DNA from: Tissierellales bacterium
GTDB lineage: Bacteria; Bacillota; Clostridia; Tissierellales; Sedimentibacteraceae
Reading direction: 5' to 3'
Assembly: GCA_018433765.1 (NCBI GenBank)
Contig: JAHDQO010000017.1
Location: 1-64,000, forward strand
Length of the DNA stretch: 64,000 nt
Shown here: positions 1,160 to 15,827 of the stretch, in pieces
Numbering within the stretch: position 1 is the stretch's first letter
Layout of the letters: the number at the start of each line of letters is the position of its first letter
Translations under genes and position numbers: made by a program
Notes under the pieces: generated by a model
Database searches by the model: none
Told to the model about the DNA's origin: nothing
What the model saw: the letters and a program-made list of their open reading frames with translations, nothing else

Positions 1160-1197
1160 AAAAGAAGGCAATATTATAAATTATGTCTTCTTTTTTT
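1160..1197 (+). terminator. Terminator after the lipoprotein gene
   Basis: AAAGAAGGCA and TTATGTCTTC form an imperfect stem followed by seven T. A near copy with better pairing lies at 5778-5813, as part of the duplicated segment. Confidence 0.6.
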
Positions 1198-1279
1198 GTT
1201 AGTACTAACAACTGTAAAGTGTAATAATATCATACAGCATTATAATACATTTTAACATATTTTCATAAAAATAAATTGT

Positions 1280-1308
1280 TTGCATTAATATGTATTAAAT
1301 GATATAAT
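1280..1308 (+). promoter_or_regulatory. Sigma-A promoter, upstream duplicate
   Basis: TTGCAT (1280-1285), a 17-bp spacer and TATAAT (1303-1308). The promoter and its surroundings are duplicated at 5902-5930 in front of the intact ABC exporter gene. Here the gene behind it has decayed. It may now drive the glycosyltransferase operon starting at 1744, with a leader of about 430 bp, since I see no terminator in between. Confidence 0.6.
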
Positions 1309-1378
1309 GTGACATATTTATACAAAAAATGAAATATTGTAATTTGTTAATATACTTTATTTTTATCAGTTTATCAAT

Positions 1379-1640
1379 AAAAAAGAACTTATTATTAGCA
1401 AATGATAAGTAGTTACCGGATTATGATATTGTACAAGCTTGCAAGAATGTATATATCCATGATGATATTATGAATTTACTTAAAAAGTATGATACTTTGT
1501 CATTAGCACAAAAACAAAGACTAGATATATCTAGAGCCTTTCTTGAAGGAATCAAAGGCTATATTATTTGTTAAACCTACCTCTGGACTAGACAATATAT
1601 TTTAATATTATATAAATAGATTTTAAATTAGTAAAATCTA
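1379..1640 (+). pseudogene. Relic of a second ABC exporter gene
   Basis: The segment aligns by eye with bases 7320-7590 of the intact ABC exporter gene at 6015-7760. Long nearly identical blocks include the region after ABC Walker A (GTACAAGCTTGCAAGAA, ATATCCATGATGATATTATG) and the stretch after Walker B (CCTACCTCTGGACTAGACAA). About 1.3 kb of the 5' part is gone, the block encoding the LSxGQ signature region is deleted, and stop codons and frameshifts break the frame. The upstream promoter region matches too, so this is a decayed duplicate and not a chance similarity. Confidence 0.85.
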
Positions 1641-1743
1641 AGGAAATTACAGTAAAAGAGGAATTTTATTTATGTAATTTTTACAGATATTTAATTTTAT
1701 AATTTAGTATGAATTAAATAAATTTTTTATAAGGGTGATGAGG

Positions 1744-2859
1744 ATGAAAATTTTAATTATTGGTAAATATGTTCCTGAAGTGAACATAACATCAAAACAA
1801 AATTATAATTTAGCTAATAAATTAGCTGAAGAAGGTCATAAAGTTTTTGTAGTAACTGATTCTTGGTGTTGTAAAAGTGAAAATATGATGTGTATTGAAG
1901 CTGATGAATTTAAACTTATAAACAATAAACAAATTAAATTACTATCTTTAGATTTTTTACAGATTAAGATGTATGGAAAAGAATCAAAGACTGCTAGACT
2001 AGCTGGGCTAGCATATGAAGTATGTAAAAAGTATGATATTGATTGTATATATGCAAGTAGTATAGACCCATATGGAATAGCAGCTTATATGGTGAAAAAA
2101 ATCATTAAGAAACCGTTGATTTTGAGTAATTTTACCTATGACTTACAATATTCATTAAATGATCCATATTTAAAAGAATATTTAAAAGCAATATTAAAAG
2201 AAATAGATTTTATTATTGGGCATGATTATCAAGAAAAATCATATAAAAGTATTGGACTCAAAAACTTTAAAGAATATGTTCCGATTATTAATACAGTAGA
2301 ATCTAATAATATAAATTATTTTGAGGAAATAAAAATAAACAAAGAGCAACCTTCAATATTATTTTTAGGTAATATAAAAAGGAAAGAAGATTGTAGATAT
2401 TGCGTTAATCAATTGGAAAGTATTCCTCGAAACAGTAATTTAATAATATCTGTATATGGTAAGGGTGCAGATTTATTCAAGAAACTTATAAAACAGAGTA
2501 AGATTAATAAAAATTCTTATTTGATATCGCCTTTATCTCCTTGGAGAGAAAATAATTTAATTAAGAATAGTGATATGGTTATAGATGTTTCAGTATTAAT
2601 TAGAAATATGTATTTTGATTTAAATTCAACATTAAATATATTATCCTCTGGAGGTATACCTTTAATAGATAGAACTACGGAAATGTATTTAAATAGCAAA
2701 TATAATTTTTTGAAATCATATATTGCAATAGATAATTTTACAAAAGATGTGGAAACCAAAGTAAATTCAAGAGAATTTAATCAAATAAAAAGAAGTGTAG
2801 ATTTTAAAGAAAGTATATTTAATTATACAGCTGATGCAATCAAGGAGGTGATAAGGTAA
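1744..2859 (+). CDS. GT-B fold glycosyltransferase of the peptide locus
   Basis: This protein of about 371 residues has the look of a family 4 type glycosyltransferase. The N-terminal Rossmann half begins MKILIIGKYVPE and continues with a helix of the NLANKLAEEGHKV type. The C-terminal half starts near ILFLGNIKRKED and carries a nucleotide-binding style LNILSSGGIPLID segment near the end. I prefer the ATG at 1744, which has AGGGTG six bases upstream, over GTG 1735 or ATG 1738. The stop codon overlaps the start of the radical SAM gene by one base (TAATG), so the two are translationally coupled. This suggests it acts on the peptide product, perhaps on Ser, Thr or Cys of the core. The acceptor is unknown, and a role in cell-surface sugars is the main alternative. 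Confidence 0.7.
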   Translation: MKILIIGKYVPEVNITSKQNYNLANKLAEEGHKVFVVTDSWCCKSENMMCIEADEFKLINNKQIKLLSLDFLQIKMYGKESKTARLAGLAYEVCKKYDIDCIYASSIDPYGIAAYMVKKIIKKPLILSNFTYDLQYSLNDPYLKEYLKAILKEIDFIIGHDYQEKSYKSIGLKNFKEYVPIINTVESNNINYFEEIKINKEQPSILFLGNIKRKEDCRYCVNQLESIPRNSNLIISVYGKGADLFKKLIKQSKINKNSYLISPLSPWRENNLIKNSDMVIDVSVLIRNMYFDLNSTLNILSSGGIPLIDRTTEMYLNSKYNFLKSYIAIDNFTKDVETKVNSREFNQIKRSVDFKESIFNYTADAIKEVIR

Positions 2860-3950
2860 TGGCAGATTTTTCTTACAGTAAACTTTATGGGTTAACTAAT
2901 ACAGATAACATTAAGGGCGCATTAACTTTGCAGTGGCATATAACAGCAGAATGTGATCAGCATTGTAAACACTGTTATATGTATGATTCAAGTACATATT
3001 CTTCGGAGAAAGAAGAACAACTAAGTTTAGAAAACTGTTATAAATTAGTAGATCAGTTTCATGATATGGTAAAGAAATTTGATACATACGGATCAATAAA
3101 TATTACTGGTGGAGATCCAATATTGAGACAAGATTTTTGGAAAATATTAAAATATATTAATACTAAAGATAGAATTCAAATGACTATTTTGGGTAATCCA
3201 TATCATATAACGGATAATGTTGCAAAAAAATTAAAAAAGATGAATGTATATTCATATCAAATTAGCATTGATGGATTAGAAAAAACTCATGATTATTTTA
3301 GAAAAGAAGGTAGTTTCAAGGATTCATTAAGAGCTTTAGAGTGTCTAAATAGGAATGGAATTTATGCTAAAGTAATGTTTACTTTAAGCAAAAGAAATAA
3401 AGAAGAACTTATAGAAGTCTACAAATATTTATCAAAATTTAGTTTTATAGATGGATTTGCTTTTGATAGATTAGTGCCGATTGGTAGTGGCAGTAGTTTG
3501 AATTCTGAGGACTATTTGACTGCTCAAGAGCATAGAGATTTGTTATATAAAATGTATATGTGTGAAATAAATAATGATTCAGGCATGATTCAAACTAGGA
3601 AAGATGAATTATGGAAATTATTGTTATATCAAATGGGAGTTTCAAAACCATTACCTGAAACTAATAATAAAATTTTTTCTGGATGCGGCATAGCTTTCGG
3701 TCTGTTAACAGTACTTGCAGATGGTACTATATATACTTGTAGGAGATTAGATATAGGTATTGGAAAATTTCCACAGAATGATTTATGTAATACAATTATA
3801 AATAGTAAATTATTAAATGACATAATAGAAATTGATAATTATGATAAATGCAGAGAATGTGAATTAGTTTATTTTTGCAGGGGATGTCCAGCAGTTAAAT
3901 ACGGCTATAATAAAGATGTGTTTAAATCTGATCCACATTGTTGGAAATAA
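2859..3950 (+). CDS. Radical SAM/SPASM peptide maturase 1
   Basis: 363 residues. The radical SAM cluster motif CDQHCKHC (Cys32, Cys36, Cys39) binds the [4Fe-4S] cluster that cleaves SAM, and GGDP follows in the SAM-binding region. The C-terminal part has a SPASM-type cysteine pattern: CGIAFG, CRRLD, CRECELVYFCRGCP and a final CWK, which normally holds auxiliary Fe-S clusters. Unlike the other two radical SAM enzymes here it has only about 30 residues before the CX3CX2C motif, so it has no large N-terminal leader-binding domain. It is coupled to the glycosyltransferase upstream. Such enzymes form thioether or carbon-carbon links or epimerise residues; which one applies here cannot be read from sequence. 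Confidence 0.9.
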   Translation: MADFSYSKLYGLTNTDNIKGALTLQWHITAECDQHCKHCYMYDSSTYSSEKEEQLSLENCYKLVDQFHDMVKKFDTYGSINITGGDPILRQDFWKILKYINTKDRIQMTILGNPYHITDNVAKKLKKMNVYSYQISIDGLEKTHDYFRKEGSFKDSLRALECLNRNGIYAKVMFTLSKRNKEELIEVYKYLSKFSFIDGFAFDRLVPIGSGSSLNSEDYLTAQEHRDLLYKMYMCEINNDSGMIQTRKDELWKLLLYQMGVSKPLPETNNKIFSGCGIAFGLLTVLADGTIYTCRRLDIGIGKFPQNDLCNTIINSKLLNDIIEIDNYDKCRECELVYFCRGCPAVKYGYNKDVFKSDPHCWK

Positions 3951-3988
3951 TTATAAATATACAATGATTACAGATAAGGAGGGATTTA

Positions 3989-5077
3989 ATGAAAATACGA
4001 ATAGAAAACAATTTTCATGTAGTTGAATATCTTAATAAATATTATGCAATAGATTGTAGCAGTTTAGATATTTTTGAAGTTAATAATATATTTATAAAAA
4101 TTATTAATTTAATGAATACACTAAATGAAGAAGAAATAATTAGTACATTAAAGAGTGAATATACACTCAATGATATTAAAGATGAGATAAAAAAGGTAAA
4201 AGAGTATTACTTAATAAAATCTAAGGAAGTATTAGAAAATCAAGAAGACATTATATACAAATATATCGGGATTAATGAAATAAAAAAATTTGATTTTAAG
4301 AATATTAGTAATAAATACTTTGATAAGTATATTCTCATGTTAACCGTAGATGATTTTTATGATGAGAATTTAACTAATTTACTTGACAGAACAAATATCT
4401 TTACTTTATTGAATATGGACGAAAAGGATATTGATAACAATTGTATAGCATATAAAAACATAAAACAGTATTTAAAAGTTCGACAGGGTAGATTTAGAAT
4501 TAATATATCAAGTGAAGATTTCGTAAAGTGCTATAGTATTTTAATTAATGAAGGTATTAAAAATTTTGATATACAATTAAAATCAGATTATATTAACAAA
4601 ATTAATGATGAGGAAATTGAAAAGATCCAAGCTCTTTTGATGAAAACCTTTAACACTAAACAAGATCCTTATTTAGCAGTAATTAAAGATATAATAAGGA
4701 TTATAGCTTTTAAATTACATTATAAAAAGGCATGTGAAATTAAGTGTATAGGTAGTAGATTTTGTACAAATACGGACGGTAGTGATGATAGAGTATTATG
4801 TAAACTTAATAAAGTTTATTATAACTTAGGTGTTTTATATGTTGTTAAATACCTTAATTCTCGCCAGAATAATATACATAAAATTCTTATAGAAGACTTA
4901 AATATTTCTTTAACTAATAAAGAAAAAATATTATTAAGTAAATCTTATCATTGGTCTAGAAACTTAGAAGAAATTTATAAAAATTCATTAAAGAATATGT
5001 GTAGAAATAAAGAAAATAATTTAATAACTTTTAGGGATTTAAATAAAAGCAGAATTATAACTGGAGTGAGTTACTAA
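3989..5077 (+). CDS. Radical-SAM-maturase-like protein lacking the CX3CX2C motif
   Basis: This 362-residue protein has no domain that I can name with certainty. Its first 75 residues (FHVVEYLNKYYAIDCSS, then FEVNN) resemble the leader-binding N-terminus of SPASM peptide maturases such as the SCIFF type. There is no radical SAM motif, but a late CEIKCIGSRFC segment recalls SPASM cysteines. A possible role is a leader-binding scaffold or a catalytically dead partner of the true radical SAM enzymes; this is inference. It begins with ATG after ATAAGGAGGG, 38 bp behind maturase 1, and ends 104 bp before precursor A1. Confidence 0.6.
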   Translation: MKIRIENNFHVVEYLNKYYAIDCSSLDIFEVNNIFIKIINLMNTLNEEEIISTLKSEYTLNDIKDEIKKVKEYYLIKSKEVLENQEDIIYKYIGINEIKKFDFKNISNKYFDKYILMLTVDDFYDENLTNLLDRTNIFTLLNMDEKDIDNNCIAYKNIKQYLKVRQGRFRINISSEDFVKCYSILINEGIKNFDIQLKSDYINKINDEEIEKIQALLMKTFNTKQDPYLAVIKDIIRIIAFKLHYKKACEIKCIGSRFCTNTDGSDDRVLCKLNKVYYNLGVLYVVKYLNSRQNNIHKILIEDLNISLTNKEKILLSKSYHWSRNLEEIYKNSLKNMCRNKENNLITFRDLNKSRIITGVSY

Positions 5078-5180
5078 TTCAAAATTTTATAGAAAAAATA
5101 AAATACTGCTATTTTGAGAAGGAAATCTTATTAAGGAATAACATACTAAAAATGTATTAAGTATCTTAGGAGGAACTAAA

Positions 5181-5336
5181 ATGAAATCACTAAATGAATT
5201 GATTTGGAACAATGAAAATTTTAATGATGGTGAAGAGATTACTATAAATGACTATGATCAAGTTATGGTCGCTTTATGTGGCGGCGGTTCAGGAGGCGGT
5301 AGTATTCCTGGATGTGCCTTGCTTTATGTTCGTTAA
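5181..5336 (+). CDS. RiPP precursor peptide A1
   Basis: 51 codons, ATG after TTAGGAGGAACTAAA. The leader begins MKSLNELIWN and is acidic up to about residue 28. The segment MVALCGG marks the start of the core, which is glycine- and serine-rich with Cys33 and Cys45 and a hydrophobic tail (ALLYVR). Three paralogues in this locus share the leader nearly identically and differ mostly in the core, as expected of ribosomally made, modified peptides. A likely product is a loop closed between the two cysteines, or a sulfur-to-alpha-carbon link. The cleavage site is unknown: the GG after the cysteine resembles a double-glycine site, but the local exporter has no C39 protease. Confidence 0.85.
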   Translation: MKSLNELIWNNENFNDGEEITINDYDQVMVALCGGGSGGGSIPGCALLYVR

Positions 5337-5433
5337 AATATATAGTATATAACAATAGTAGATTTTAACATAGGTAACTGCGGAAAATTTTCAAATAATT
5401 TACATACTAAAAAACTAGTAAAGGAGGATAAGG

Positions 5434-5586
5434 ATGAAGTCATTAAATGAATTGATTTGGAACAGTGAAGACTTTAACGATGATGGAGAAATTACTATAA
5501 ACGATACCCATTACCCTATGGTTGCTTTATGTGGTGGTAGTCCATCAGGATGCGGTTGTGGCTGTCTTTTAATTGTTACTAATTAA
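5434..5586 (+). CDS. RiPP precursor peptide A2 (Cys-Gly-Cys-Gly-Cys core)
   Basis: 50 codons, ATG after AAAGGAGGATAAGG. The leader is MKSLNELIWN followed by SEDFNDDGEITIND, and the core starts at MVALCGG. The core differs from the other three: Cys33 plus a tight CGCGC run (Cys40, Cys42, Cys44), then LLIVTN. Four cysteines would allow two links or metal binding. It lies 97 bp after A1 inside the same inverted-repeat cassette, with its own ribosome binding site. Confidence 0.85.
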   Translation: MKSLNELIWNSEDFNDDGEITINDTHYPMVALCGGSPSGCGCGCLLIVTN

Positions 5587-5744
5587 TATATATAGTTTAT
5601 ATATTGTGTAAATTGTAACAAAAGATTTCCTTCTCTTAATAAAATACAATTAATTCTACAATTATTTTATTATTTACTAATATTAAAGAATTTAATGTAT
5701 AGTTATTACAAATATAAAAAATATTTGTATAGCATATTATACAT

Positions 5745-5777
5745 TTTTTTCTAGTAGTATGTTCATCAAATAATATT
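5745..5777 (+). pseudogene. Relic of a second lipoprotein gene
   Basis: CTAGTAGTATGTTCATCAAA and its surroundings copy bases 659-690 of the lipoprotein gene, which encode the lipobox and the residues after it. One substitution changes the codons around it. The rest of the gene is missing, and the copy runs straight into the duplicated terminator at 5778 and the promoter at 5902. Confidence 0.75.
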
Positions 5778-5813
5778 AAGAAGACAATAAATATAAGTTA
5801 TGTCTTCTTTTTT
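5778..5813 (+). terminator. Duplicated terminator before the exporter gene
   Basis: AAGAAGACA (5778-5786) pairs with TGTCTTCTT (5801-5809), followed by more T. It is the better-paired copy of the terminator at 1160-1197, and may end transcripts coming from the precursor cassette. Confidence 0.65.
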
Positions 5814-5901
5814 GTATGTACTAACCTTCAACTGTAAAAGGTGTAATGATATTATATAGCATTATAATACATTTTAACATATTTGCATAAAAATAAAGTG
5901 T

Positions 5902-5930
5902 TTGCATTAATATGTATTAAATGATATAAT
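5902..5930 (+). promoter_or_regulatory. Sigma-A promoter of the exporter/maturase genes
   Basis: TTGCAT (5902-5907), 17-bp spacer, perfect TATAAT (5925-5930), about 85 bp before the exporter start. The same promoter with its flanks is present at 1280-1308. Confidence 0.75.
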
Positions 5931-6014
5931 GTTACATATTTATACAAAAAATGCAATGTTATAACTGTTTAAAAATATTTTATTTTTATATAATTCATTA
6001 ATGTGAGGTATAGT

Positions 6015-7760
6015 ATGAAATCAAAAGCATTTAGTTCAGAAGATGTAAAATTATTAAAGAGAGCATTAACATATAACCTTAAGTTTAAGTGGAGATATAT
6101 ATTTGTTATTTTTACTAATATAGCATTAATAATTATATCTGTTGTAGAACCTTTATTGTATGGGGAACTTATAACAACATTTATTAATAAAAGTCAGTTT
6201 AAACAAATTGTTAACATAGTGTCTTTTTTAATTGTTATATATGTAATAAAAGTAATTATTCAAATAAGTAATAAATATTTAGAACTATATATTAGAAAAA
6301 ACATACTTGAAAATGTAAAATGTACAGTATTCAAAAAAATAACAGGACTGTCATTAAAGCAGTTATATAAAATAAAGTTTGGGAGTTTAACTACATATAT
6401 TCATTCAGATTCTAATGCAATTGTGGAAGTTATAATGAATGATTTTATGAGGGCAATTATAGATGTCCTCACGATTCTTTGTATAGGTTATGTAATTATT
6501 AGGATAAATCTTTTGCTTTTTTTCATGGTTTTATTATCTTTCCCAATAACTTATTGTATATATGTAAAGTATGGAGATAGTTTAAGGAAGAAAAATAGAC
6601 ACCTAAAAAAACTAGAAGACAAATACTTTAATAATATACAACAGTATATTACTGGTATAGAAGAAATAAAGAGCTTTGGAATAATAGATAAAATAAATAG
6701 ACGTTTCTCAATGCTTTTAAATAATATAAAAATAGTTTCAATAAAAATTTCACAATTAAATTTTATGGCAGATAGATTAGCTGGTATAGTTGATTTTATT
6801 ATTCATATAGGATTTATTATCGTAGGAGGATATTTAGTTTTTGTTAATAAATTAGATATTAAATTTTTTATAGCTTTCTCATCTTACTCAAAACTTTTTT
6901 CAAATTCACTATTAAAATTAACTAGGCTAAATTCTAATTTGCAGAGAAAGTTAATATCTCTTAAAAGAGTCTTTGGTTTTCTTGATATTGAATGTAATGA
7001 AGAAGAAGAAATCAAAAAAATAAATATAAATAATGTAAAAGGACATATACAATTTAAAAATGTAAGTTTTTCATATGATGATATTAACTTAAATATCAAA
7101 AATATTAATCTAGATATCCTTCCAAATCAAAAAATAGCTATTATTGGTAAAAGCGGCTCAGGTAAGACTACAATTTTAAAATTATTAATAAATTTATACA
7201 GTCCTTCAGCTGGAAATATACTTGTTGATGATATAGATATCGAGTCTGTCAATAAAGAGAGTCTAAGAAAACAAATTACAATTGTTAGGCAAGAAGCATT
7301 TTTGTTTAATTTATCAATTAAAGAAAATTTATTATTAGTCAATGATAAGTTAACAGATTATGACATTGTACAAGCTTGCAAGAAGGCATATATCCATGAT
7401 GATATTATGAATTTACCTGAAAAGTATGAGACTGTTCTTAAAAATACTGGAGTAAATTTGTCAGTAGGACAAAAACAAAGACTAGCTATTGCTAGAGCTT
7501 TCTTAAAGAAATCAAAAGTTATATTATTTGATGAACCTACCTCTGGACTAGACAATATATCTCAAGATTATATAAATAAAGTTATTGATGAATTAAGTAA
7601 TTATCATACTGTTATCGTAACTGCTCATAGATTAAATATAATTAAGGATTACGATCAAATTATATTAATAGATAAAGGAGAAATTATTGCACAAGGAATT
7701 CATGAAGAGCTTATTAAGGAGAACCTTGTATATAAGCAACTATTTGATTTATGCAGTTAA
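6015..7760 (+). CDS. ABC exporter, fused membrane and ATPase domains
   Basis: 581 residues from the ATG at 6015, which has GAGGT five bases upstream; a GTG at 6003 is a weaker start. The first 320 residues form a six-helix exporter domain and the rest an ATPase with Walker A GKSGSGKT, signature LSVGQKQR, Walker B VILFDEP and the H-loop TAHR. There is no N-terminal C39 peptidase, so it should export peptides without cutting the leader. A decayed duplicate lies at 1379-1640. It is set between precursor cassette A and two maturase genes, so it most likely exports the modified peptides and may also help self-protection. Confidence 0.9.
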   Translation: MKSKAFSSEDVKLLKRALTYNLKFKWRYIFVIFTNIALIIISVVEPLLYGELITTFINKSQFKQIVNIVSFLIVIYVIKVIIQISNKYLELYIRKNILENVKCTVFKKITGLSLKQLYKIKFGSLTTYIHSDSNAIVEVIMNDFMRAIIDVLTILCIGYVIIRINLLLFFMVLLSFPITYCIYVKYGDSLRKKNRHLKKLEDKYFNNIQQYITGIEEIKSFGIIDKINRRFSMLLNNIKIVSIKISQLNFMADRLAGIVDFIIHIGFIIVGGYLVFVNKLDIKFFIAFSSYSKLFSNSLLKLTRLNSNLQRKLISLKRVFGFLDIECNEEEEIKKININNVKGHIQFKNVSFSYDDINLNIKNINLDILPNQKIAIIGKSGSGKTTILKLLINLYSPSAGNILVDDIDIESVNKESLRKQITIVRQEAFLFNLSIKENLLLVNDKLTDYDIVQACKKAYIHDDIMNLPEKYETVLKNTGVNLSVGQKQRLAIARAFLKKSKVILFDEPTSGLDNISQDYINKVIDELSNYHTVIVTAHRLNIIKDYDQIILIDKGEIIAQGIHEELIKENLVYKQLFDLCS

Positions 7761-7860
7761 TATAGTTTTTTTATAAAGGAGGAATTATATAGAAGTAAAA
7801 TTACAAAGATTTGTTTAAAGTAAATATGTTGATCAAATTTTATTACAGGAAGGTGATATT

Positions 7861-9216
7861 ATGAAATTTAAAGATAATTTAGTTTTAATAAATGATAAGA
7901 CTATTTTATTTATTAATCTTGTTTCTTATAGAAGGAAGAAAGTTCAATACAAACATAAAGATATGGTCTTATCTATTATAGACAAAGAAAAAGGAAATAA
8001 TAATTTTAATGATGAAGAATTGTCATTTATAAAGGAATTAGAAGAAGAAAAACAAATTCTAAATAAAGATTTAGATAGTTTAGTTAAGAAGGAATTATTA
8101 TCATATTATGGAGATTCGATGAATGATAATAGAATTAGACCTAGTATTGTATTATCTTATGAATGTAATAGTAATTGTATATATTGTTATCAAAAAGGAA
8201 AAAAATTACCTAATGGTAAAATTAATGTTGATTATATTGATAAAATAGACGAATTTTATAATAAATATTCAGAAAATTTCCCTTTGAAGAATAAAAATTT
8301 TGTAATTTATTTAACAGGTGGAGAACCATTGTTAGATAGTAATATTACTACACTCAAATATATCTTTGAAAAATGGGATAATGCAAAGTTTGAAATTGCA
8401 ACAAATGGAATAAATATTACAAAATTCATTGATTATCTTCCAATTGATAAAATTAAGGAATTTGACATATCATTAGATGGCGATAGAGATACTCATAATA
8501 AAAGAAGACCTATGAGGAATGGAGACAAAAGCTTTGATAGAATTGTGCAAGGTATAGAAATGGTTATTGAGAAAGGCATACCTGTAAATTTGAAAGTAAC
8601 ATCTGACAAAAATTCTATTTTATACCTAACAAATCTACTTGATTTTCTTGAGAAAAAAGACTGGTTGAATAATCCATTGATTAAAATTGGAATATCATGT
8701 GTATTCAGTTTCAAAGAAGGTATTAAGCTAGACGAAAAATTTAATACTAGAACAGATATTATTAACAGTTATATAGAAATGAAAAAATGTGATAAAAGAA
8801 TGAGAAATATAGAGCCAAATTTTATGGACGGTATAGGTACTTTAAACAAGATTGTTACAAGAAAACAAAATTCGAGAGTAATGCCAGGTATTTATTGCTG
8901 TGAAAACCTATTCACACCAAGTTATACATTTGATCCTTCTGGAAATGTTTATTTTTGTGTAGCTTTAACTGGAAATGATAAAGGAAAAGTTGGAACTTTT
9001 TATCCTGAAGTAAACATAGATTACGATGTAATTTCAAAATTGAGAGAAAGGCATATATATCAAATGAATGAATGTGAAGAATGCAGCTATAAGTTTATTT
9101 GCAGAGGTGGATGTCCAGCTTCAACTATACTACAGTACGGTAATTTGATGAAGTCAGATTGTGGTTTTTATCAAGATGAGTTTGTAATGGATAAATTAGG
9201 ACAAATTATATTATAG
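7861..9216 (+). CDS. Radical SAM/SPASM peptide maturase 2
   Basis: 451 residues, ATG after GGAAGGTGATATT. About 100 residues precede the CNSNCIYC motif (Cys102, Cys106, Cys109) and may bind the leader. TGGEP follows for SAM binding. The SPASM part shows CCENLF, YFCVA, CEECSYKFICRGGCP and DCGF. The layout and length match maturase 3 at 9260, so the two are probably paralogues that act on different residues or different precursors. The gene follows the exporter by 100 bp. The chemistry (thioether, C-C link or epimerisation) is not readable from sequence. Confidence 0.9.
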   Translation: MKFKDNLVLINDKTILFINLVSYRRKKVQYKHKDMVLSIIDKEKGNNNFNDEELSFIKELEEEKQILNKDLDSLVKKELLSYYGDSMNDNRIRPSIVLSYECNSNCIYCYQKGKKLPNGKINVDYIDKIDEFYNKYSENFPLKNKNFVIYLTGGEPLLDSNITTLKYIFEKWDNAKFEIATNGINITKFIDYLPIDKIKEFDISLDGDRDTHNKRRPMRNGDKSFDRIVQGIEMVIEKGIPVNLKVTSDKNSILYLTNLLDFLEKKDWLNNPLIKIGISCVFSFKEGIKLDEKFNTRTDIINSYIEMKKCDKRMRNIEPNFMDGIGTLNKIVTRKQNSRVMPGIYCCENLFTPSYTFDPSGNVYFCVALTGNDKGKVGTFYPEVNIDYDVISKLRERHIYQMNECEECSYKFICRGGCPASTILQYGNLMKSDCGFYQDEFVMDKLGQIIL

Positions 9217-9259
9217 TTTAAATATTTTAAGTTAATTAATTTAGTTTTGTGGAGGAGTT

Positions 9260-10588
9260 ATGAAACCTATAGATGATTATGTAAAGATAAAAGCAAATGA
9301 TAAAGAGTATATCTATATAAATACATTAAATGGAGCTATAGATATAATTGAAGTTGAAGTTGATAATATTTTTGAGAAGTGGAAGAGAAATGGTATTAAT
9401 TTTGAAACAGATTATGATAAAGAAATATATGACTTCATGGTTAAGAGAGAATATATACTAGAAAAAGACAAAGCGAAGAAATTAAAGGAAGATATATACA
9501 CAAGACTAAAGAAAGAATTGAAATATAAACAAAAGAATATAGAATCTATTACTTTAGTATTAACTTATGATTGTAATTTTAACTGCTTTTACTGCTATGA
9601 AAAAGAAGATGAGGAACTTTCAAATAAGACATCAAAAACTTTAACAAAAGAAATGGTAGATAAGATTTATAATATGTTCGGAGAAAATTTAAAAAATGTA
9701 AACTTATTTGGTGGCGAACCTTTACTTCTGAAAAATTATGAGTTAGTAAAATATATATTAAATAAAAGAAATGATTTAAGTTATGGTATTACTACTAACG
9801 GCTATTATCTAGAGGAATTTGTACCAATTCTTAAAGATAAAAAAAATTTAAAAATTCAGGTAACTCTTGATGGACCAAAAGAAAAACATGATAAAAGAAG
9901 AGTATTATTTGATGGTTCACCTACTTTTGAGAAAATTTCTAGAGGGATTATAAAAGCTTTAGATAATAATATATCTATAAAAATAAGAATGAATATAGAT
10001 GATTCAAATTATAATGAGGCAAAGGATTTTAGGGAAAATGTTTTAAGTAAATATGCTCAATATTCAGATATATTATCTTTTGAACTATATCCATTATTTC
10101 AAAACAATAATTTAAAGAAATATAATTTATATGAAAAAATGTATAATGAAGACATTATCTTTAAAGAGAATGGTGAAGTAGATACAAGTATAAATTATAC
10201 TTTATATACTGCTTTACCTATTATTAACAATCTATTATCAAATGCTAAATATAAACCTCAATACGTTTTTTGCAATGCAAGTTTAGGTAACCGCTATTTT
10301 GATCCTAATGGAGATATTTATACATGTTCATTGGCAGTGGGGAATAAAGAACTATCATTAGGAAAATATTATCCTGAATATAATATAGAGCATGAAGAAA
10401 ATTGGCTAAATAGAACTGTTGAAACCATTGACAAATGTAGAGAATGTAAAATGGCATTATTATGTGGTGGAGGCTGCCCTTTGGCAGCATATAAATCTAC
10501 AGGCAGTTTTTCAAATGGGACATGCTATCAAACAAAATTTTATCTAGAGAAAATATTGCCTCTTATGTGTAATAAGTATAAGAAGTAA
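9260..10588 (+). CDS. Radical SAM/SPASM peptide maturase 3
   Basis: 442 residues, ATG after GTGGAGGAGTT. An N-terminal stretch of about 100 residues (YIYINTLNGAIDIIEV near the start) is followed by CNFNCFYC (Cys105, Cys109, Cys112), GGEPLL and a SPASM tail with CNASLG, YTCSLA, CRECKMALLCGGGCP and a last Cys in NGTC. Neighbour and probable paralogue of maturase 2, 43 bp downstream of it. With four precursors in two sequence classes, the two enzymes may share the work or act in sequence. Confidence 0.9.
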   Translation: MKPIDDYVKIKANDKEYIYINTLNGAIDIIEVEVDNIFEKWKRNGINFETDYDKEIYDFMVKREYILEKDKAKKLKEDIYTRLKKELKYKQKNIESITLVLTYDCNFNCFYCYEKEDEELSNKTSKTLTKEMVDKIYNMFGENLKNVNLFGGEPLLLKNYELVKYILNKRNDLSYGITTNGYYLEEFVPILKDKKNLKIQVTLDGPKEKHDKRRVLFDGSPTFEKISRGIIKALDNNISIKIRMNIDDSNYNEAKDFRENVLSKYAQYSDILSFELYPLFQNNNLKKYNLYEKMYNEDIIFKENGEVDTSINYTLYTALPIINNLLSNAKYKPQYVFCNASLGNRYFDPNGDIYTCSLAVGNKELSLGKYYPEYNIEHEENWLNRTVETIDKCRECKMALLCGGGCPLAAYKSTGSFSNGTCYQTKFYLEKILPLMCNKYKK

Positions 10589-10912
10589 TATCAGTAGTTA
10601 TACAACTATCTAGTTATATATTGGCGATTGTGAAATGTCGCTCAGGATGACTTATTATTAGATAAAAGTTAAAAGTATAATGTTTAAAGTTTTGGAGGCT
10701 TTACTTACGTAAAGCAATTTAATAATAAAAAGAATTTTTCTTTACTCTCTTTGTTACTCAGTTGACTAATCGATGTCATTCTAAGCAAAAGTATATTTTG
10801 ATAAATAACTGGAGTGATAAAATTTGATATACAAAATGAATTCAAGTAGTAATCAATGATTACAAATTTGACAACATTCTAATTAATACTACGTAAGGAG
10901 TGATTTAAGTTA
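10589..10912. other. Intergenic stretch with worn repeat fragments
   Basis: I find no gene in these 324 bp. It holds GCTCAGGATGAC (about 10639-10650) and, farther on, GATGTCATTCTAAG in the opposite sense. Both look like worn halves of the widespread bacterial repeat that reads roughly CGCTCAGGATGAC. A related relic is at 40945-41003. No clear terminator follows maturase 3. Confidence 0.45.
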
Positions 10913-11905
10913 ATGAATATATTAATAGTTGCAGATATGGAAGGAATAACAGGCATATATGAAGAAAATATATCGTGCATTAGAAGTAATAGTAAGGACT
11001 GGGAAGCTTATGGGCGGAGAATGATTACACAGGATGTGAAAGTAATAGTAAACGAATGTTTAGATTGCGGAGCAGAAAGTATAACCATATGTGATGCACA
11101 TGACAATGGAAATTCTATAATTCGTGAAGAGTTTAAAAGTACAAAGATTAATTTTATATCACAAATATGGGAATTAAAATTAAAAGAGACTAGATATGAT
11201 TACGCTATTTTAGCAGGATTTCATGGTATGAATAATAGTGGAGGTATAATAGCTCATACATTTAGGCCAGATATTAAAAGAATGATAATGTTAGATAAAG
11301 AAATTGGTGAGGTTGGTTTAATATTAGGTTTATTAAATGAGAATAAGATACCAACAATTTTAGTAACTGGTGATTATCATGGAGTCAAAGAAGCTCTGGA
11401 GATTTGTCCTAAATGTATAGGCTGTATTGTTAAATCTAAAGTAAACAATAAATTAAATATGCTAACAGAAGATGAATCTGAAAAATTAATTAAATCTTGT
11501 GTAAGAGAAGCTATAAATAATAGAAATAATATACCTTTAGTTACTTTTAATTATCCACTCAATATTACTTTGGAATTAATAAATAATGACTATCTAGAGG
11601 GACTGGGTAACAATCAAGATTGTAGGTATATAATTCAATCAGATAAATTACTATGGAAGGATATTAATTTTACAGATTTTTTCAATGATTTTTATAAACT
11701 AATCATTAACTTTATGAATGTATACAGAGAAAATTTAATTATAAATAAAGAATTTGTTATGAAAATGAGAAAAAAATATTCGCATACAAATAAAGAAAAA
11801 TATAAATCAAATAAAGAACTAGGAATGTTATTAAGTAAAAATTTATTTACCTTAACTAATTCTGACAGAAAGAGAATTGAGACATTATTTGAGAATGCAG
11901 AATAA
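10913..11905 (+). CDS. D-aminopeptidase, peptidase family M55 (DppA-like)
   Basis: 330 residues, ATG after GTAAGGAGTGATTTAAGTTA. The start NILIVADMEGITGI carries the Asp and Glu zinc ligands of family M55 (DxEG). CDAHDNG, GFHGMN and EIGEVGL match the later histidine and glutamate ligand regions of B. subtilis DppA. These zinc enzymes form decamers and cut D-amino acids from peptide N-termini. Its place inside a radical SAM peptide locus is striking, because some radical SAM enzymes turn L- into D-residues. It could trim or destroy D-residue peptides, or serve in self-protection. A plain nutritional role is the alternative. The protein is longer than usual at the C-terminus. Confidence 0.85.
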   Translation: MNILIVADMEGITGIYEENISCIRSNSKDWEAYGRRMITQDVKVIVNECLDCGAESITICDAHDNGNSIIREEFKSTKINFISQIWELKLKETRYDYAILAGFHGMNNSGGIIAHTFRPDIKRMIMLDKEIGEVGLILGLLNENKIPTILVTGDYHGVKEALEICPKCIGCIVKSKVNNKLNMLTEDESEKLIKSCVREAINNRNNIPLVTFNYPLNITLELINNDYLEGLGNNQDCRYIIQSDKLLWKDINFTDFFNDFYKLIINFMNVYRENLIINKEFVMKMRKKYSHTNKEKYKSNKELGMLLSKNLFTLTNSDRKRIETLFENAE

Positions 11906-11996
11906 CTGAAATTATAAAAAAACTAAAAAGACAGTTTTTCAAAACGGTGCTATTTTGAGAAGGAAATCTTATTAAATAAATAAAGGAGGAATATTA

Positions 11997-12152
11997 ATGA
12001 AATCACTAAATGAATTGATTTGGAACAATGAAGATTTAAATGATGATGCTGAAAGTACTTTAAATGTTACTTCACTTGAAGCTATGGTAGCTTTATGCGG
12101 TGGCTTTGGTGGCGGCGGCGTTAATGGATGTGGGTTCGCTTACAGTCATTAA
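11997..12152 (+). CDS. RiPP precursor peptide B1
   Basis: 51 codons, ATG after AAAGGAGGAATATTA. The leader MKSLNELIWN is identical in its first ten residues to A1, A2 and B2, and continues NEDLNDDAES. The core begins near MVALCGG, with Cys34 and Cys45 eleven residues apart, glycine-rich between them, and an aromatic tail (GFAYSH). The leader is closer to B2 than to the A pair, in line with duplication of whole cassettes followed by divergence. Confidence 0.85.
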   Translation: MKSLNELIWNNEDLNDDAESTLNVTSLEAMVALCGGFGGGGVNGCGFAYSH

Positions 12153-12260
12153 TACATTTAGTTTATAAATTTGTAGAGATATAGGATATTATATAATTAA
12201 TTAAAATATAACTCTAGCAATATTAACATCTAAAAATAAATGAGAAAAGGAGTAATAAGA

Positions 12261-12419
12261 ATGAAATCATTAAATGAATTGATTTGGAATAATGAAGACT
12301 TGAATGATGATGCAGAAAATACTTTAAACGATGTAGAACAAGTTATGGTAGCTCTATGTGGTAGTGGTGGCACAGGTGGGGGCATAGGCCCTGGATGTGG
12401 CTTCTTATTTGGTTTCTAG
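12261..12419 (+). CDS. RiPP precursor peptide B2
   Basis: 52 codons, ATG after AAAAGGAGTAATAAGA. The leader starts MKSLNELIWN, then NEDLNDDAEN. The core starts at MVALCGS, with Cys33 and Cys46 separated by a Gly/Ser/Thr spacer that ends in PG, and a GFLFGF tail. It is the most hydrophobic and glycine-rich of the four cores and ends the inverted-repeat cassette B. Confidence 0.85.
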   Translation: MKSLNELIWNNEDLNDDAENTLNDVEQVMVALCGSGGTGGGIGPGCGFLFGF

Positions 12420-12573
12420 TATAAATAGTTAATAATTTGTAACAAGTAAGATTTCTTTCTCTTAATAAAAATAGTTAATTTTCAGTACATTTAATAATAA
12501 TTAGCTGAATTAATGTAATTGACTTAAATTTTAAAATAATAAGTTAAGTTTACTAATATACGAGGAGAAGTAT

Positions 12574-15500
12574 ATGATAAGATATAAAAAATATAAAAAA
12601 CAAATTTTTATATTAATAATTACTTTAGTGTTTTCTATACTAACACCTTATAATAATACAGCTGTATTTTCAAGTGAAACTAAAAATGATTTATCAATAG
12701 ATAAAGAATACAGCGGCTTTAAATTAATAGAAAACAAAACATTAAACGAAATAGATTCTAACTTTAAATTATTTAAGCATGAAAAAAGTGGAGCAGAATT
12801 AGTATTTGTAGATAATGATGATACTAATAAAATTTTTTCTATTGCTTTTAAAACACCTGCTGAAAATGATATGGGAATTCCTCATATTGTAGAGCATTCA
12901 GTATTTTGTGGTTCAGAAAAATTTAATGCAAAGCATACTCTTCTTGCAATGAAGCAGCGAAGCCTTGCTACTCATATAAATGCAGCAACTGATGATTTGT
13001 ATACTTATTATACAATATCAAGTCAAAACAATAAAGATTTCAGAAATCTTATGGATGTTTATCTTGATGCTGTATTTAATCCGAATTTTATAAATAATCC
13101 ATACATATTTAAGCAAGAGGGAATTAACTATAGTATTAATTCGTCAGAAGATGAAATAACTTATAATGGCATAGTTTACAATGAGATGAAGAAATTTTAT
13201 ACTAATCCATATTTTTTATTAAATACTGTAATTACAAAATCACTTTATCCAGATACTCCATATAACTATGCATCAGGTGGAAATCCAGATGATATAGTAA
13301 AATTGACTTATGATATGGTTGTACAATATTATGAAAAATATTATCATCCTTCCAACAGCATAATATATCTTTATGGTGATTTAAATATATCTGAAACATT
13401 AAAATTTATTGATAATAATTATCTAAATTCTTTTCAAGATAAAAACATTAACTGCTCTGTAAAAATGCAGGAAAAATTTAATGAAAGAAGTGAAATGAAT
13501 CAAATATACGGCATTCCAGCTAATGAGGATGAGACAAACAAAGCATATTTAGCCTTAAGCTTTGTTACTGGAAATTTTGAAGACAAAGAAGAAAATGTAG
13601 CTATGGATTTAATATGTGCATATTTAAATTCAACTGATTCACCGTTGAAAATGGCATTTAGAGAAGCTGGGTTAGGTGAAAATATTTATACTTCATTTAA
13701 CCTTAAAGTACAGCCTTACTTTTCTTTCATACTTGAAAATGCTAGTTTAAGTGATACAGAAAAATTTAACGATGCTGTATTGAAATCTCTTAATGAGATT
13801 ATTGAAAATGGTTTAGATGAGAGAGTAATTACTTCTATTATTAAAAATTGCGAGATAAATATTCAAACCAATAAAACCGATGCTTATAGAGGATACTACT
13901 ATCAAGAAAAAATATTGGATAGTTGGGCTTGTGGAGATGATTTATCTTTATATATAGAAATAGATGAAGTTTTAAATGATATTAAAGGTAAAATTAGTAC
14001 AGATTATTTTAAAAATCTTATTTTAAAATACTTAATTAACAATGAATATAGTTCTTTAGTTACATTAGAGCCTAATGCAGGCTTACAGATAAAAAAAGAT
14101 ATGGAAACAAAGCAATACTTGGATACATATAAAAAATCTCTTACAAAAGAAGAATTGAACAATTTAATTGAAAGTAACAATATACTTAAAGTTAAACAAG
14201 AAACTCCTGAAACTTTAGAAAGTATGCCAATTATTTCTTTGAGTGATATAGATTGTGATTTAGAAGAACCCATTCAAATTAAAGATAATATTGAGGGAGC
14301 TACAATCCTATATACTCCTATATTTACCGACAAGTTATCATACATCAATCTTTATTTTGATAGTAGAAGAGTTCCAGAGGATAAATTATCATATTTATAT
14401 TTAATTCAATATTTATTAGGTAATGTTAGTACTGAAAATTATAGTTATTCAGAACTCAGTGAAAAAATAATGCTTGAAGCAGGTAGTATGAATTTTGCAG
14501 TTAGCAATTATAAAGATTTTAACAATATTAATGCATATTATCCTAAATTTGAAATATCTACATTTACTTTAACAGAAGAGCTGCCTAATACTTTTAAATT
14601 AATTGAAGAAATTATAAATAACAGTAAGTTTAATGATATAGAGAGATTAAAGGAAATAATACATGTTATTAAGTGTACATTTAACAAACCAAATTATAAT
14701 TTTATAGCAAACCAAAGATTACAAAGTTATTTTTCTGAAGCAGCAAAATATAACGAAATCGGTGGATTAGAATTTTATGAATTTATCTGTGAAATTGAAG
14801 AACTGCTAAAAACTAATCCTCAGAAAGTTGTTAAAAATATTGAAGAGATTAGTAAATTAGTTTTTCCAAAACAAAATTTAATAGTTGGTGTAACAACATC
14901 TAAGGAAGATTACTGTAAATTTGTAGAACCTTTCAAAGAGTTTTCACAGAATTTATCATATGTCTCTACGCCAATACAAAAATATGAGTTTGAAGATTCT
15001 GTATCAAATGAAGGATTTTACTCTAAATCTCAAGTTCAATATACCGCTAAAGGATACAATTTAAAAGAGTTAGGTTATGAATTTGATGGAAAAATGTTCG
15101 TTTTGGCAAATGTTATTGATGAATTTTTATTTAATAAAATAAGGATGATGGGAGGAGCATATAGAGGTGACGCAAAAATCATTCCTACAGGCGAGGTTAT
15201 TTTTAGTTCAAGTCAAGATCCTAATTTAATTCAAACTTTTAATATATATGATGAAATCTCTGATTATATAAAAGAATTTAGTGCAGATGAAAGGCAAATG
15301 GAGAATTATATTATTGGTACATATGGTAAATTGAATCCATTACTAAATCCTTCGCAAAAAGGTATAGTAGCTGAAGAAAAATATATAATAGGATATTCCT
15401 ATGAACAAGAGCAAAAGATACTGAAAGAAATAATGTCAACAACTGTTGAAGATATTAGAAGCTATTACAAGTTGATTGAAAATATTGTAAATAAAGATTT

Positions 15501-15582
15501 TATTTGTGTCATTGGAACTGAAAATAAAATAGAAGAAAGCAAAGATATATTTAATAAAACATTACCTCTTTTTCAATATTAA
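12574..15582 (+). CDS. Secreted M16 metallopeptidase (presequence-protease type)
   Basis: 1002 residues, ATG after CGAGGAGAAGTAT. A signal-like segment (basic start, hydrophobic residues about 10-24) comes first, unusual for this family, whose members are mostly cytosolic. The inverted zinc motif HIVEH (His104, Glu107, His108) and the distal Glu204 in YNEMKKF are intact. The length fits a full four-domain M16C enzyme of the PreP type, which digests small unfolded peptides in a closed chamber. It directly follows cassette B, so removal of leaders outside the membrane, or clearing of used leaders, is a reasonable inference. It could also degrade unrelated peptides. Confidence 0.85.
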   Translation: MIRYKKYKKQIFILIITLVFSILTPYNNTAVFSSETKNDLSIDKEYSGFKLIENKTLNEIDSNFKLFKHEKSGAELVFVDNDDTNKIFSIAFKTPAENDMGIPHIVEHSVFCGSEKFNAKHTLLAMKQRSLATHINAATDDLYTYYTISSQNNKDFRNLMDVYLDAVFNPNFINNPYIFKQEGINYSINSSEDEITYNGIVYNEMKKFYTNPYFLLNTVITKSLYPDTPYNYASGGNPDDIVKLTYDMVVQYYEKYYHPSNSIIYLYGDLNISETLKFIDNNYLNSFQDKNINCSVKMQEKFNERSEMNQIYGIPANEDETNKAYLALSFVTGNFEDKEENVAMDLICAYLNSTDSPLKMAFREAGLGENIYTSFNLKVQPYFSFILENASLSDTEKFNDAVLKSLNEIIENGLDERVITSIIKNCEINIQTNKTDAYRGYYYQEKILDSWACGDDLSLYIEIDEVLNDIKGKISTDYFKNLILKYLINNEYSSLVTLEPNAGLQIKKDMETKQYLDTYKKSLTKEELNNLIESNNILKVKQETPETLESMPIISLSDIDCDLEEPIQIKDNIEGATILYTPIFTDKLSYINLYFDSRRVPEDKLSYLYLIQYLLGNVSTENYSYSELSEKIMLEAGSMNFAVSNYKDFNNINAYYPKFEISTFTLTEELPNTFKLIEEIINNSKFNDIERLKEIIHVIKCTFNKPNYNFIANQRLQSYFSEAAKYNEIGGLEFYEFICEIEELLKTNPQKVVKNIEEISKLVFPKQNLIVGVTTSKEDYCKFVEPFKEFSQNLSYVSTPIQKYEFEDSVSNEGFYSKSQVQYTAKGYNLKELGYEFDGKMFVLANVIDEFLFNKIRMMGGAYRGDAKIIPTGEVIFSSSQDPNLIQTFNIYDEISDYIKEFSADERQMENYIIGTYGKLNPLLNPSQKGIVAEEKYIIGYSYEQEQKILKEIMSTTVEDIRSYYKLIENIVNKDFICVIGTENKIEESKDIFNKTLPLFQY

Positions 15583-15612
15583 AATCTTTATAAATATATT
15601 TAAAATTTAAAA

Positions 15613-15674
15613 TGAGAATCACTTCATATGATATAATGTAAGTTCTTAAATAAACATTATGGAAGTGATTCTCA
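15613..15674. repeat. 13-bp perfect inverted repeat downstream of the M16 gene
   Basis: TGAGAATCACTTC (15613-15625) is exactly inverted as GAAGTGATTCTCA (15662-15674), with a partly paired 36-bp centre. The 3' side is only moderately T-rich. It may end transcription of the peptide locus or be a small repeat unit. The remainder of the 245-bp gap up to 15828 shows nothing else. Confidence 0.5.
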
Positions 15675-15827
15675 ATTTAATTATAAACAATAAAATTTAT
15701 TTAATTATTAAGATAGATTTAAGAAACAAGATTTACCATACTATAAGAGATAAAAAATTGTTTTTAAATTATTAAAAAGAAATATTTTTAAAATATTAAG
15801 TGATTAAAGACATAAGGGAGGTAAAGC

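Follow-up and report, generated by a model that had tools for sequence, protein, structure and literature searches.

Maturation of peptides by two radical S-adenosylmethionine (SAM) enzymes is known from thuricin CD, in which TrnC and TrnD form a complex on two precursors and only one of the two needs its radical SAM activity (PMC12093266; this and the other papers cited below are drawn on in part). Epipeptide loci combine a short peptide, EpeX, with the radical SAM enzyme EpeE and an M50 metallopeptidase, EpeP (PMC8326336, PMC10885120), and a grouping named "Cluster 115" has three to five radical SAM enzymes, a peptidase, a hydrolase and an Asp-Cys in its peptide (PMC9062424). Here we describe a locus for ribosomally synthesized and post-translationally modified peptides (RiPPs) in a Tissierellales bacterium (GCA_018433765.1; genome 4.19 Mb). 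It occupies positions 1744-15582 of the window, by which we mean the 64,000 nucleotides of contig JAHDQO010000017.1 that were analyzed, and its genes, all on the plus strand, are in order those for a glycosyltransferase-like protein (GT), the radical SAM protein rSAM1, ORF3, precursors P1 and P2, an ABC exporter, rSAM2, rSAM3, an M55 peptidase, precursors P3 and P4, and an M16C peptidase. The gene set probably turns four related templates into small cross-linked peptides, and we consider it likely that this is a two-module RiPP locus with paired maturases that works through the steps proposed below. By analogy with thuricin CD, it would most likely be a two-maturase pathway that cross-links core cysteines. 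In common with that system, as described in PMC12093266, it keeps two radical SAM/SPASM maturases together and has at least two paralogous precursors and a RiPP recognition element (RRE)-like N-terminus; it differs in having an M55 peptidase as a regular member, an exporter devoid of a peptidase domain, thioethers that are as yet a prediction, and maturases that stay below the cut-off of the sactipeptide models listed. Cluster 115, as outlined in PMC9062424, may overlap this system.

Precursors and conserved core

The four precursors, P1 (5181-5336), P2 (5434-5586, with four cysteines), P3 (11997-12152) and P4 (12261-12419), are plus-strand open reading frames of 50-52 amino acids, each with a purine-rich ribosome-binding stretch 5' of it by eye. 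All four carry MKSLNELIWN and a MVALCG junction ahead of differing cores, which bears out the initial annotation; of 53 alignment columns, 25 do not vary, 20 of those belonging to the leader and MVALC stretch, and the cores are Gly-rich and hold Cys-Gly, with no ACGX repeat seen by eye. A typed consensus-like precursor query run against the bacterium's own genome at E<=10 matched these four places only (E 5.7e-29 to 6e-15), so the four are not chance frames. An NCBIfam scan of P1, P2, P4 and three relatives' peptides gave no family match, and a search of Rfam gave zero matches.

The exporter gene (6003-7760, plus strand) has ABC_membrane and ABC_tran matches, and no C39 peptidase match was found in its product or in those of the four relatives' exporters scanned (of eight), as had been annotated. 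The M55 gene (10913-11905, plus strand) encodes a zinc peptidase that was likewise correctly named a D-aminopeptidase family member and scores 132.1 bits against PF04951 (cut-off 25).

Scanning contigs with rSAM3 aligned to one relative yielded 17 loci, 14 of them strong. Twelve of 199 relatives and 2 of 398 genomes from the phylum gave matches above 470 bits to a seven-row rSAM3 profile (the own genome is in both counts), the next-best matches lying at 240 and 270 bits. After removal of records seen twice there were 22 loci besides the window, and in eight of them an rSAM2 relative lies in the same gene run as rSAM3. These eight are from Anaerosalibacter (L042), a Defluviitaleaceae metagenome-assembled genome (MAG; L048), Tissierella sp. 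P1 (L050), Lachnospiraceae MAGs (L051, L053) and members of the same order as the window (L106, L107, L108; L107 is of the same family). The two maturase genes adjoin in L042, L048, L050, L051, L053 and L106, as in the window, and are separated by M55 and exporter genes in L107 and L108; L107 also carries two copies of rSAM2. In L051, close to a contig end, just the last part of rSAM2 is present, and the rSAM3 of L053 is split. An exporter and a precursor with the LIW motif are present in all eight paired loci, and M55 in seven. From this gene content we take the conserved core to be rSAM2, rSAM3, M55, the ABC exporter and a precursor. The initial annotation had made conserved co-occurrence of precursors and maturases a point to check, and they do recur: the leader motif is accompanied by rSAM2, rSAM3, the exporter and, in most loci, M55.

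The leaders in the window and the eight other loci share L-x-x-[LI]-[IM]-W. When a leader profile was built with one locus left out at a time (L050 and L106 held out together) and run on the small open reading frames of the held-out locus, the held-out precursors ranked first in 9/9 loci (E 4.8e-8 to 1.1e-4; best unrelated frame, E 0.065), a partly circular test that shows consistency, not independent discovery, the candidates having first been chosen by eye and regular expression. A precursor profile (A8) gave 14 matches at E<1e-8 in 5 of 199 genomes, all within these clusters and in genomes that themselves contribute rows to it, and three more genomes at E about 0.03 that look like chance; it detects five of the six genomes of the sample with a clustered rSAM3 and misses the Anaerosalibacter precursor. 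In an 11-row alignment (11 of 19 precursors) the first core cysteine is the only fully invariant core position.

At the other 14 of the 22 loci rSAM3 stands without an rSAM2 relative of its own, beside a short peptide that in nine cases ends in an aromatic residue plus CCAC. M55 was found at none of these 14, some of which are short or have other distant radical SAM or ABC genes nearby (L049, L100, L105). A two-gene variant, in which an rSAM3-type enzyme is paired with a peptide of some 35-42 amino acids (from an MKMK start), was seen at L043-L047, L096, L100, L103, L104 and L105, and nine of its ten peptides end in aromatic-CCAC. Its enzymes are near-identical, with end branches of 0.006-0.12 in the tree, although the genomes come from different families and one falls outside the class; this suggests horizontal spread. 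Of eight genomes fetched around rSAM2-like genes, seven share only distant radical SAM and ABC proteins with the window, and the eighth, G401, has a solitary rSAM3. Two other arrangements were also observed, namely a run of five consecutive SPASM-type genes, all in one orientation, at L033:9200-16461 (genome G256), with no precursor nearby under the Cys filter used, and, at L036:8603-19900, a pair of Nif11-like leader peptides that carry a Gly-Gly site, followed by three radical SAM genes and an exporter whose N-terminus is C39-like by eye.

Paired maturases and named classes

The maturase genes of the core, rSAM2 (7861-9216) and rSAM3 (9260-10588), are both on the plus strand. The initial annotation had called all three enzymes of the locus radical SAM/SPASM proteins. 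The radical SAM part holds, with Pfam Radical_SAM scores of 72.8, 55.2 and 67.9 bits among the three (cut-off 29.5), but the Pfam SPASM model is above its cut-off in none of them (20.5 vs 21.5 for rSAM1; not listed for rSAM2 or rSAM3). We nevertheless read rSAM2 and rSAM3 as SPASM-type because, in addition to their likeness to SPASM families, seven further cysteines after CxxxCxxC are, like that motif, invariant in 5/5 rSAM2 and 7/7 rSAM3 rows.

Seven maturases, the three of the window and four from relatives, were scanned with NCBIfam, and among the best 25 models per protein no maturase-family model reached its curated cut-off, in agreement with the initial annotation, which recognized no named class in this locus. 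The one model above its cut-off is TIGR04085, for the generic SPASM domain, in one relative (39.6 vs 27). Those class models that are listed (SCIFF, PapB, StsB, RumMC, SkfB) all score below their cut-offs, SCIFF TIGR03974 giving 70.2 bits for rSAM2 and 83.1 for rSAM3 against 425. Although CefB (NF038107), Clo7bot (TIGR04334), TIGR04463 and PapB (NF047865) are among the best-scoring named maturase models, their scores are at most 134 against cut-offs of 340-600, and P1, P2 and P4 match no NCBIfam precursor family.

In a tree of 41 rows, from which the split rSAM3 of L053 was omitted, a branch supported at 100/98 has all 22 rSAM3 rows to one side of it, and the solitary enzymes are one group within rSAM3 (86/96). 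A second group unites the nine rSAM2 rows; its support is 97/91 if the long row of rSAM1 is disregarded and 87/70 for rSAM2 by itself. A single-protein contig scan with rSAM3 gave nothing; viral contig scans gave one fragment of 34% identity for rSAM2 and nothing for the A5 profile; and plasmid searches with rSAM2 and rSAM3 gave distant radical SAM proteins only.

Could the locus nevertheless be an ordinary ranthipeptide or sactipeptide system that the available models are too narrow to reach? We lean only slightly against this explanation. A SPASM maturase with a short Cys-rich peptide and an exporter is, in the parts of PMC9062424 and PMC8326336 drawn on here, the general build of known thioether classes. 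Against it stand the lack of any class model above cut-off, the separate clade, the regular M55 and the leader motif of its own. Judged from its genes, we would call the system ordinary in kind, as a SPASM-modified RiPP, and new in its leader, maturase pair, M55 and precursor-peptidase pairing. That it constitutes a new RiPP class, with a two-maturase complex, D-configured cross-linked residues, proof-reading or immunity by M55 and matched precursor-metallopeptidase pairs in many members, is in our view improbable. A literature search, with most subscription journals outside it, found no paper in which radical SAM and RiPP occur together with Tissierella, Tissierellales or D-aminopeptidase, and none that links radical SAM to "peptidase M55" or ACGX.

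A probable module duplication and local additions

Compared with itself as DNA, the window gives three matched blocks in the same order in both copies: 1162-1366 with 5778-5989 (86.9% identical), 1370-1618 with 7310-7578 within the exporter gene (79.5%), and block A, P1-P2 with flanks (5107-5655), with block B, P3-P4 with flanks (11948-12480; 69.2% over 578 columns), all on the plus strand. In our interpretation, a unit made up of upstream region, exporter, enzymes and precursor pair has been duplicated in tandem. Module B (5778-12480), with the exporter, rSAM2, rSAM3, M55, P3 and P4, would be the conserved system, and module A (1162-5655) a duplicate carrying other enzymes: it would start with a decayed copy (1162-1620, plus strand, frames broken) of the exporter's upstream region and a broken piece of its ATPase, followed by GT, rSAM1, ORF3, P1 and P2. 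The decayed copy, like ORF3, is absent from the initial annotation. The plus-strand stretch before the intact exporter (5778-5989) has, by eye, a hairpin with a T run, and a promoter-like TTTGCA-18-TATAAT at 5901-5930 whose hexamer pair is present in both duplicates (1279-1308 and 5901-5930); such hexamer matches are not above chance in the region (130 found vs 136 expected).

Other repeats were seen in the same stretch. Positions 658-691, at the beginning of the gene for a small lipoprotein, and 5746-5779, in the gap after P2, are 91% identical over 34 bases, perhaps another trace of duplication. The sequence GAGAAGGAAATC lies 5' of each precursor pair (5116-5127 and 11957-11968), with an inverted copy or near-copy 3' (5624-5635 and about 12450), and could close a long hairpin. 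These inverted repeats are statistically marginal, and we make no claim for them: they score 14 and 12, against at most 13 and 12 for 40 shuffled sequences, and at 16 relatives' precursors inverted repeats were not above shuffles. An imperfect inverted repeat of about 90 bases (15599-15687) lies between the M16C gene and a MoxR gene.

The enzyme rSAM1 (2859-3950, plus strand) differs from the core maturases. It has 23% identity with rSAM2 and rSAM3, reaches 41 bits at most in the 22 relative loci, as a distant paralog, and none of the 189 further genomes searched gave it a match at E<=1e-40. Its nearest models are those of the ACGX system (TIGR04340, 295.4 bits against a cut-off of 400) and SbtM (TIGR04082, 197.3 against 350, over profile positions 199-515 only); the cores here likewise hold Cys-Gly but have no ACGX repeat. 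The radical SAM domain of rSAM1 begins at residue 28, which leaves no room for an N-terminal leader-binding domain, and perhaps ORF3 is its leader-binding partner. ORF3 (3989-5077, plus strand, 362 amino acids) has no Pfam match above cut-off and no NCBIfam match, residues 8-73 weakly resemble the N-terminus of a radical SAM protein (E 4.6e-5), and its AlphaFold2 (AF2) model is poor, with a mean predicted local distance difference test score (pLDDT) of 41. On that score and an hhalign probability of 0.2%, ORF3 as a degenerate radical SAM protein is unsupported. A plasmid search with ORF3 gave zero matches.

If the two modules bear different enzymes, do they form one pathway or two? Two could run side by side, with GT, rSAM1 and ORF3 acting on the Cys-Gly of P1 and P2 in the manner of ACGX or SbtM, the exporter, rSAM2, rSAM3 and M55 serving P3 and P4, the leader common by descent and one exporter for both. 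A duplicated module with different enzymes in each copy, an rSAM1 unlike rSAM2 and rSAM3 and nearest an ACGX model, and a match to SbtM that starts at position 199, the missing part of which ORF3 could supply, all favor this explanation. We find it possible and rather doubtful, the four leaders being near-identical over the motif, so that rSAM2 and rSAM3 could also take P1 and P2, and the relation of ORF3 to leader-binding domains being weak.

The GT gene (1744-2859, plus strand) had been annotated as a glycosyltransferase, and Pfam gives matches of that kind, but below their cut-offs (26.8 vs 28.5; 20.2 vs 26.4). The last gene, M16C (12574-15582, plus strand), encodes a PreP-like peptidase with HIVEH and with M16, M16_C, M16C_assoc and PreP_C above cut-off. 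The family assignment of the initial annotation thus stands, whereas secretion rests on a hydrophobic N-terminus noticed by eye, from which we would expect it to be secreted. It is the only copy in its own genome, and homologs occur in four of five other genomes tested and not in the fifth. With tblastn at E<=1e-3, GT, ORF3 and M16 have no match in the 22 relative loci. The single gene set of the initial annotation holds for the core but not for GT, rSAM1, ORF3 and M16, which, in the loci and genomes compared, lie outside the conserved set as local additions or neighbors. A PADLOC search with rSAM1, ORF3, rSAM2, M55 and M16 gave only viperin matches, for rSAM1 and rSAM2, which are expected because the radical SAM core is common to these proteins.

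Chemistry, peptidases and proposed working

In the AF2 model of rSAM3 three strands are followed by a winged helix (pLDDT 83-93 over residues 1-80), and by topology its N-terminus (residues 1-92) is predicted to be an RRE-like leader-binding domain. The nearest solved structure is 5wgg, both by sequence profile (90.2 bits) and as the first match by Foldseek; we take this to be CteB, the SCIFF maturase (TIGR03974), from which our system differs in that rSAM2 and rSAM3 are far below the TIGR03974 cut-off and the precursors are not six-Cys SCIFF peptides. With the modeled RRE-like domain and 5wgg as nearest structure, rSAM2-rSAM3 fits, by analogy, a thuricin CD-like maturase pair.

We propose that the leader motif, the conservation of which is observed, would dock onto the RRE-like domain of rSAM3, of rSAM2 or of both. 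The paralogous rSAM2 and rSAM3 would then work together on the cores, linking core cysteines to other residues, most probably through thioether bonds, and the exporter, judged by its domain content, would export the modified peptide with the leader attached. Leader removal would take place outside the membrane, by a lipoprotein with HEYxH in five relatives and perhaps by M16C in the window. As the weakest step, M55 may clear or trim peptides with D-configured modified residues, in quality control or self-protection; rSAM1, ORF3 and GT could conceivably add further changes, perhaps to P1 and P2 only.

A number of observations weigh against this proposal. The model of rSAM3 is weak in its SPASM part (pLDDT <60 over much of 335-421) and its fit to 5wgg is loose overall (template modeling score 0.49, root-mean-square deviation 9.9), and rSAM3 and its relatives score 106-129 bits against TIGR04463 (cut-off 525) and 54 bits against TigE 8vpo, of a family that presumably makes cyclopropylglycine. 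The place of the window's rSAM3 within its clade is poorly supported, no starred small set of the tree holding it, and M55 is missing from L053. A window-only precursor profile (A1) finds only the own genome among 199, and tblastn with P1-P4 at E<=1e-3 finds no relative's precursor, mixed profiles alone doing so. M16C as a fixed part of the system is not supported: at the seven places, out of eight, for which surroundings were fetched, neither RiPP genes nor a MoxR-type operon adjoins it. Lastly, the cores are alike in little beyond the first cysteine and, because they are also Gly-rich in the window, the acceptor residues cannot be named.

Because TigE 8vpo and TIGR04463 score in the range of 5wgg, other chemistry is possible. 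The maturases might form another radical bond or change, such as cyclopropylglycine, a cyclophane or epimerized residues, and leave the cysteines free or metal-binding. That no named maturase model is reached, that TIGR04463, PapB, CefB and Clo7bot score alike, that in the peptides adjoining the solitary relatives CC is flanked by an aromatic residue, that M55 would suit products with D-residues and that the epimerase EpeE is among the structural neighbors of rSAM3, though far down at rank 46, are all points in its favor; EpeE-type models are not among the 25 listed per protein. We regard it as unlikely, given that the first core cysteine is the sole fully invariant core position, that seven further cysteines are kept in every aligned rSAM2 and rSAM3 row and that the thioether maturase 5wgg is the closest solved structure by sequence and by fold.

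Few roles are known for M55 D-aminopeptidases, of which DppA acts on short D-peptides. The window M55 has D8, E10, H63, H104, H115 and E133 invariant in 4/4 rows and aligned to DppA 1hi9, from which we assume the ligand role of each residue. Family and metal-ligand positions are thus shared with DppA-type enzymes, but the protein is not a DppA equivalog (NF058634, 103.2 bits, cut-off 430), its longer C-terminus is unmatched by family models past about residue 225 and its context is that of a RiPP. A D-aminopeptidase would suit the proposed pathway if the maturases were to produce alpha carbons of D configuration; the alpha carbon is the site at which sactisynthases and radical SAM epimerases work (PMC8326336).

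RiPP leaders are cleaved by metallopeptidases of families M1, M16, M61, M103 and M50, in the cell, during export or outside it (PMC10885120, in part). Lipoproteins of zinc-peptidase type, 439-569 amino acids long and recognized by eye from their N-termini, lie beside precursors in five of the eight paired loci (L050, L051, L106, L107, L108). HEYxH is present in all 11 that were read, and Peptidase_MA_2 matches, below cut-off, in two of seven scanned. These five loci hold 15 lipoprotein genes and 12 precursors, including four further copies found by tblastn (L107:1208-2818, L108:1171-2802, L106:17538-19178, L050:1838-3478), which another precursor adjoins in three cases (not L050), and from this layout precursor and lipoprotein peptidase seem to multiply as a unit. 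A search for a homolog in the window's own genome found none, a weak negative. Elsewhere there is an M50 peptidase beside the precursor in L042, a papain-family peptidase in L053 and an S41 peptidase in the solitary L049, while none was seen in the 6-kb L048 contig. In the joining of short peptide, radical SAM enzyme and metallopeptidase, and in the M50 of L042, the system resembles the epipeptide loci as far as PMC8326336 and PMC10885120 describe them; it differs from them in having other maturases, two of them, and M55. That M55 is instead the leader peptidase or an N-terminal trimmer, with the secreted peptidases having another function, for example because the peptides target them or partner with them, is quite unlikely: it belongs to an aminopeptidase family and is nearly as constant as the maturases (7/8 loci), and the lipoprotein peptidases vary in number and were not found in the own genome, but M55 has no signal sequence by eye, so that it would be cytoplasmic, and DppA, the family member already known, has short D-peptides as substrates.

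The proposed paired-maturase system would thus be a recurrent RiPP subfamily with its own leader motif, spread over Tissierella relatives, Lachnospiraceae and Defluviitaleaceae and unreached by the named maturase models among those listed. The regular presence of M55 beside peptide-modifying radical enzymes suggests a role for this peptidase family in proof-reading, or in immunity against D-containing peptides. In addition, the paired genes for precursors and lipoprotein peptidases may serve as natural matched sets for the specificity of leader removal where the exporter has no peptidase of its own.

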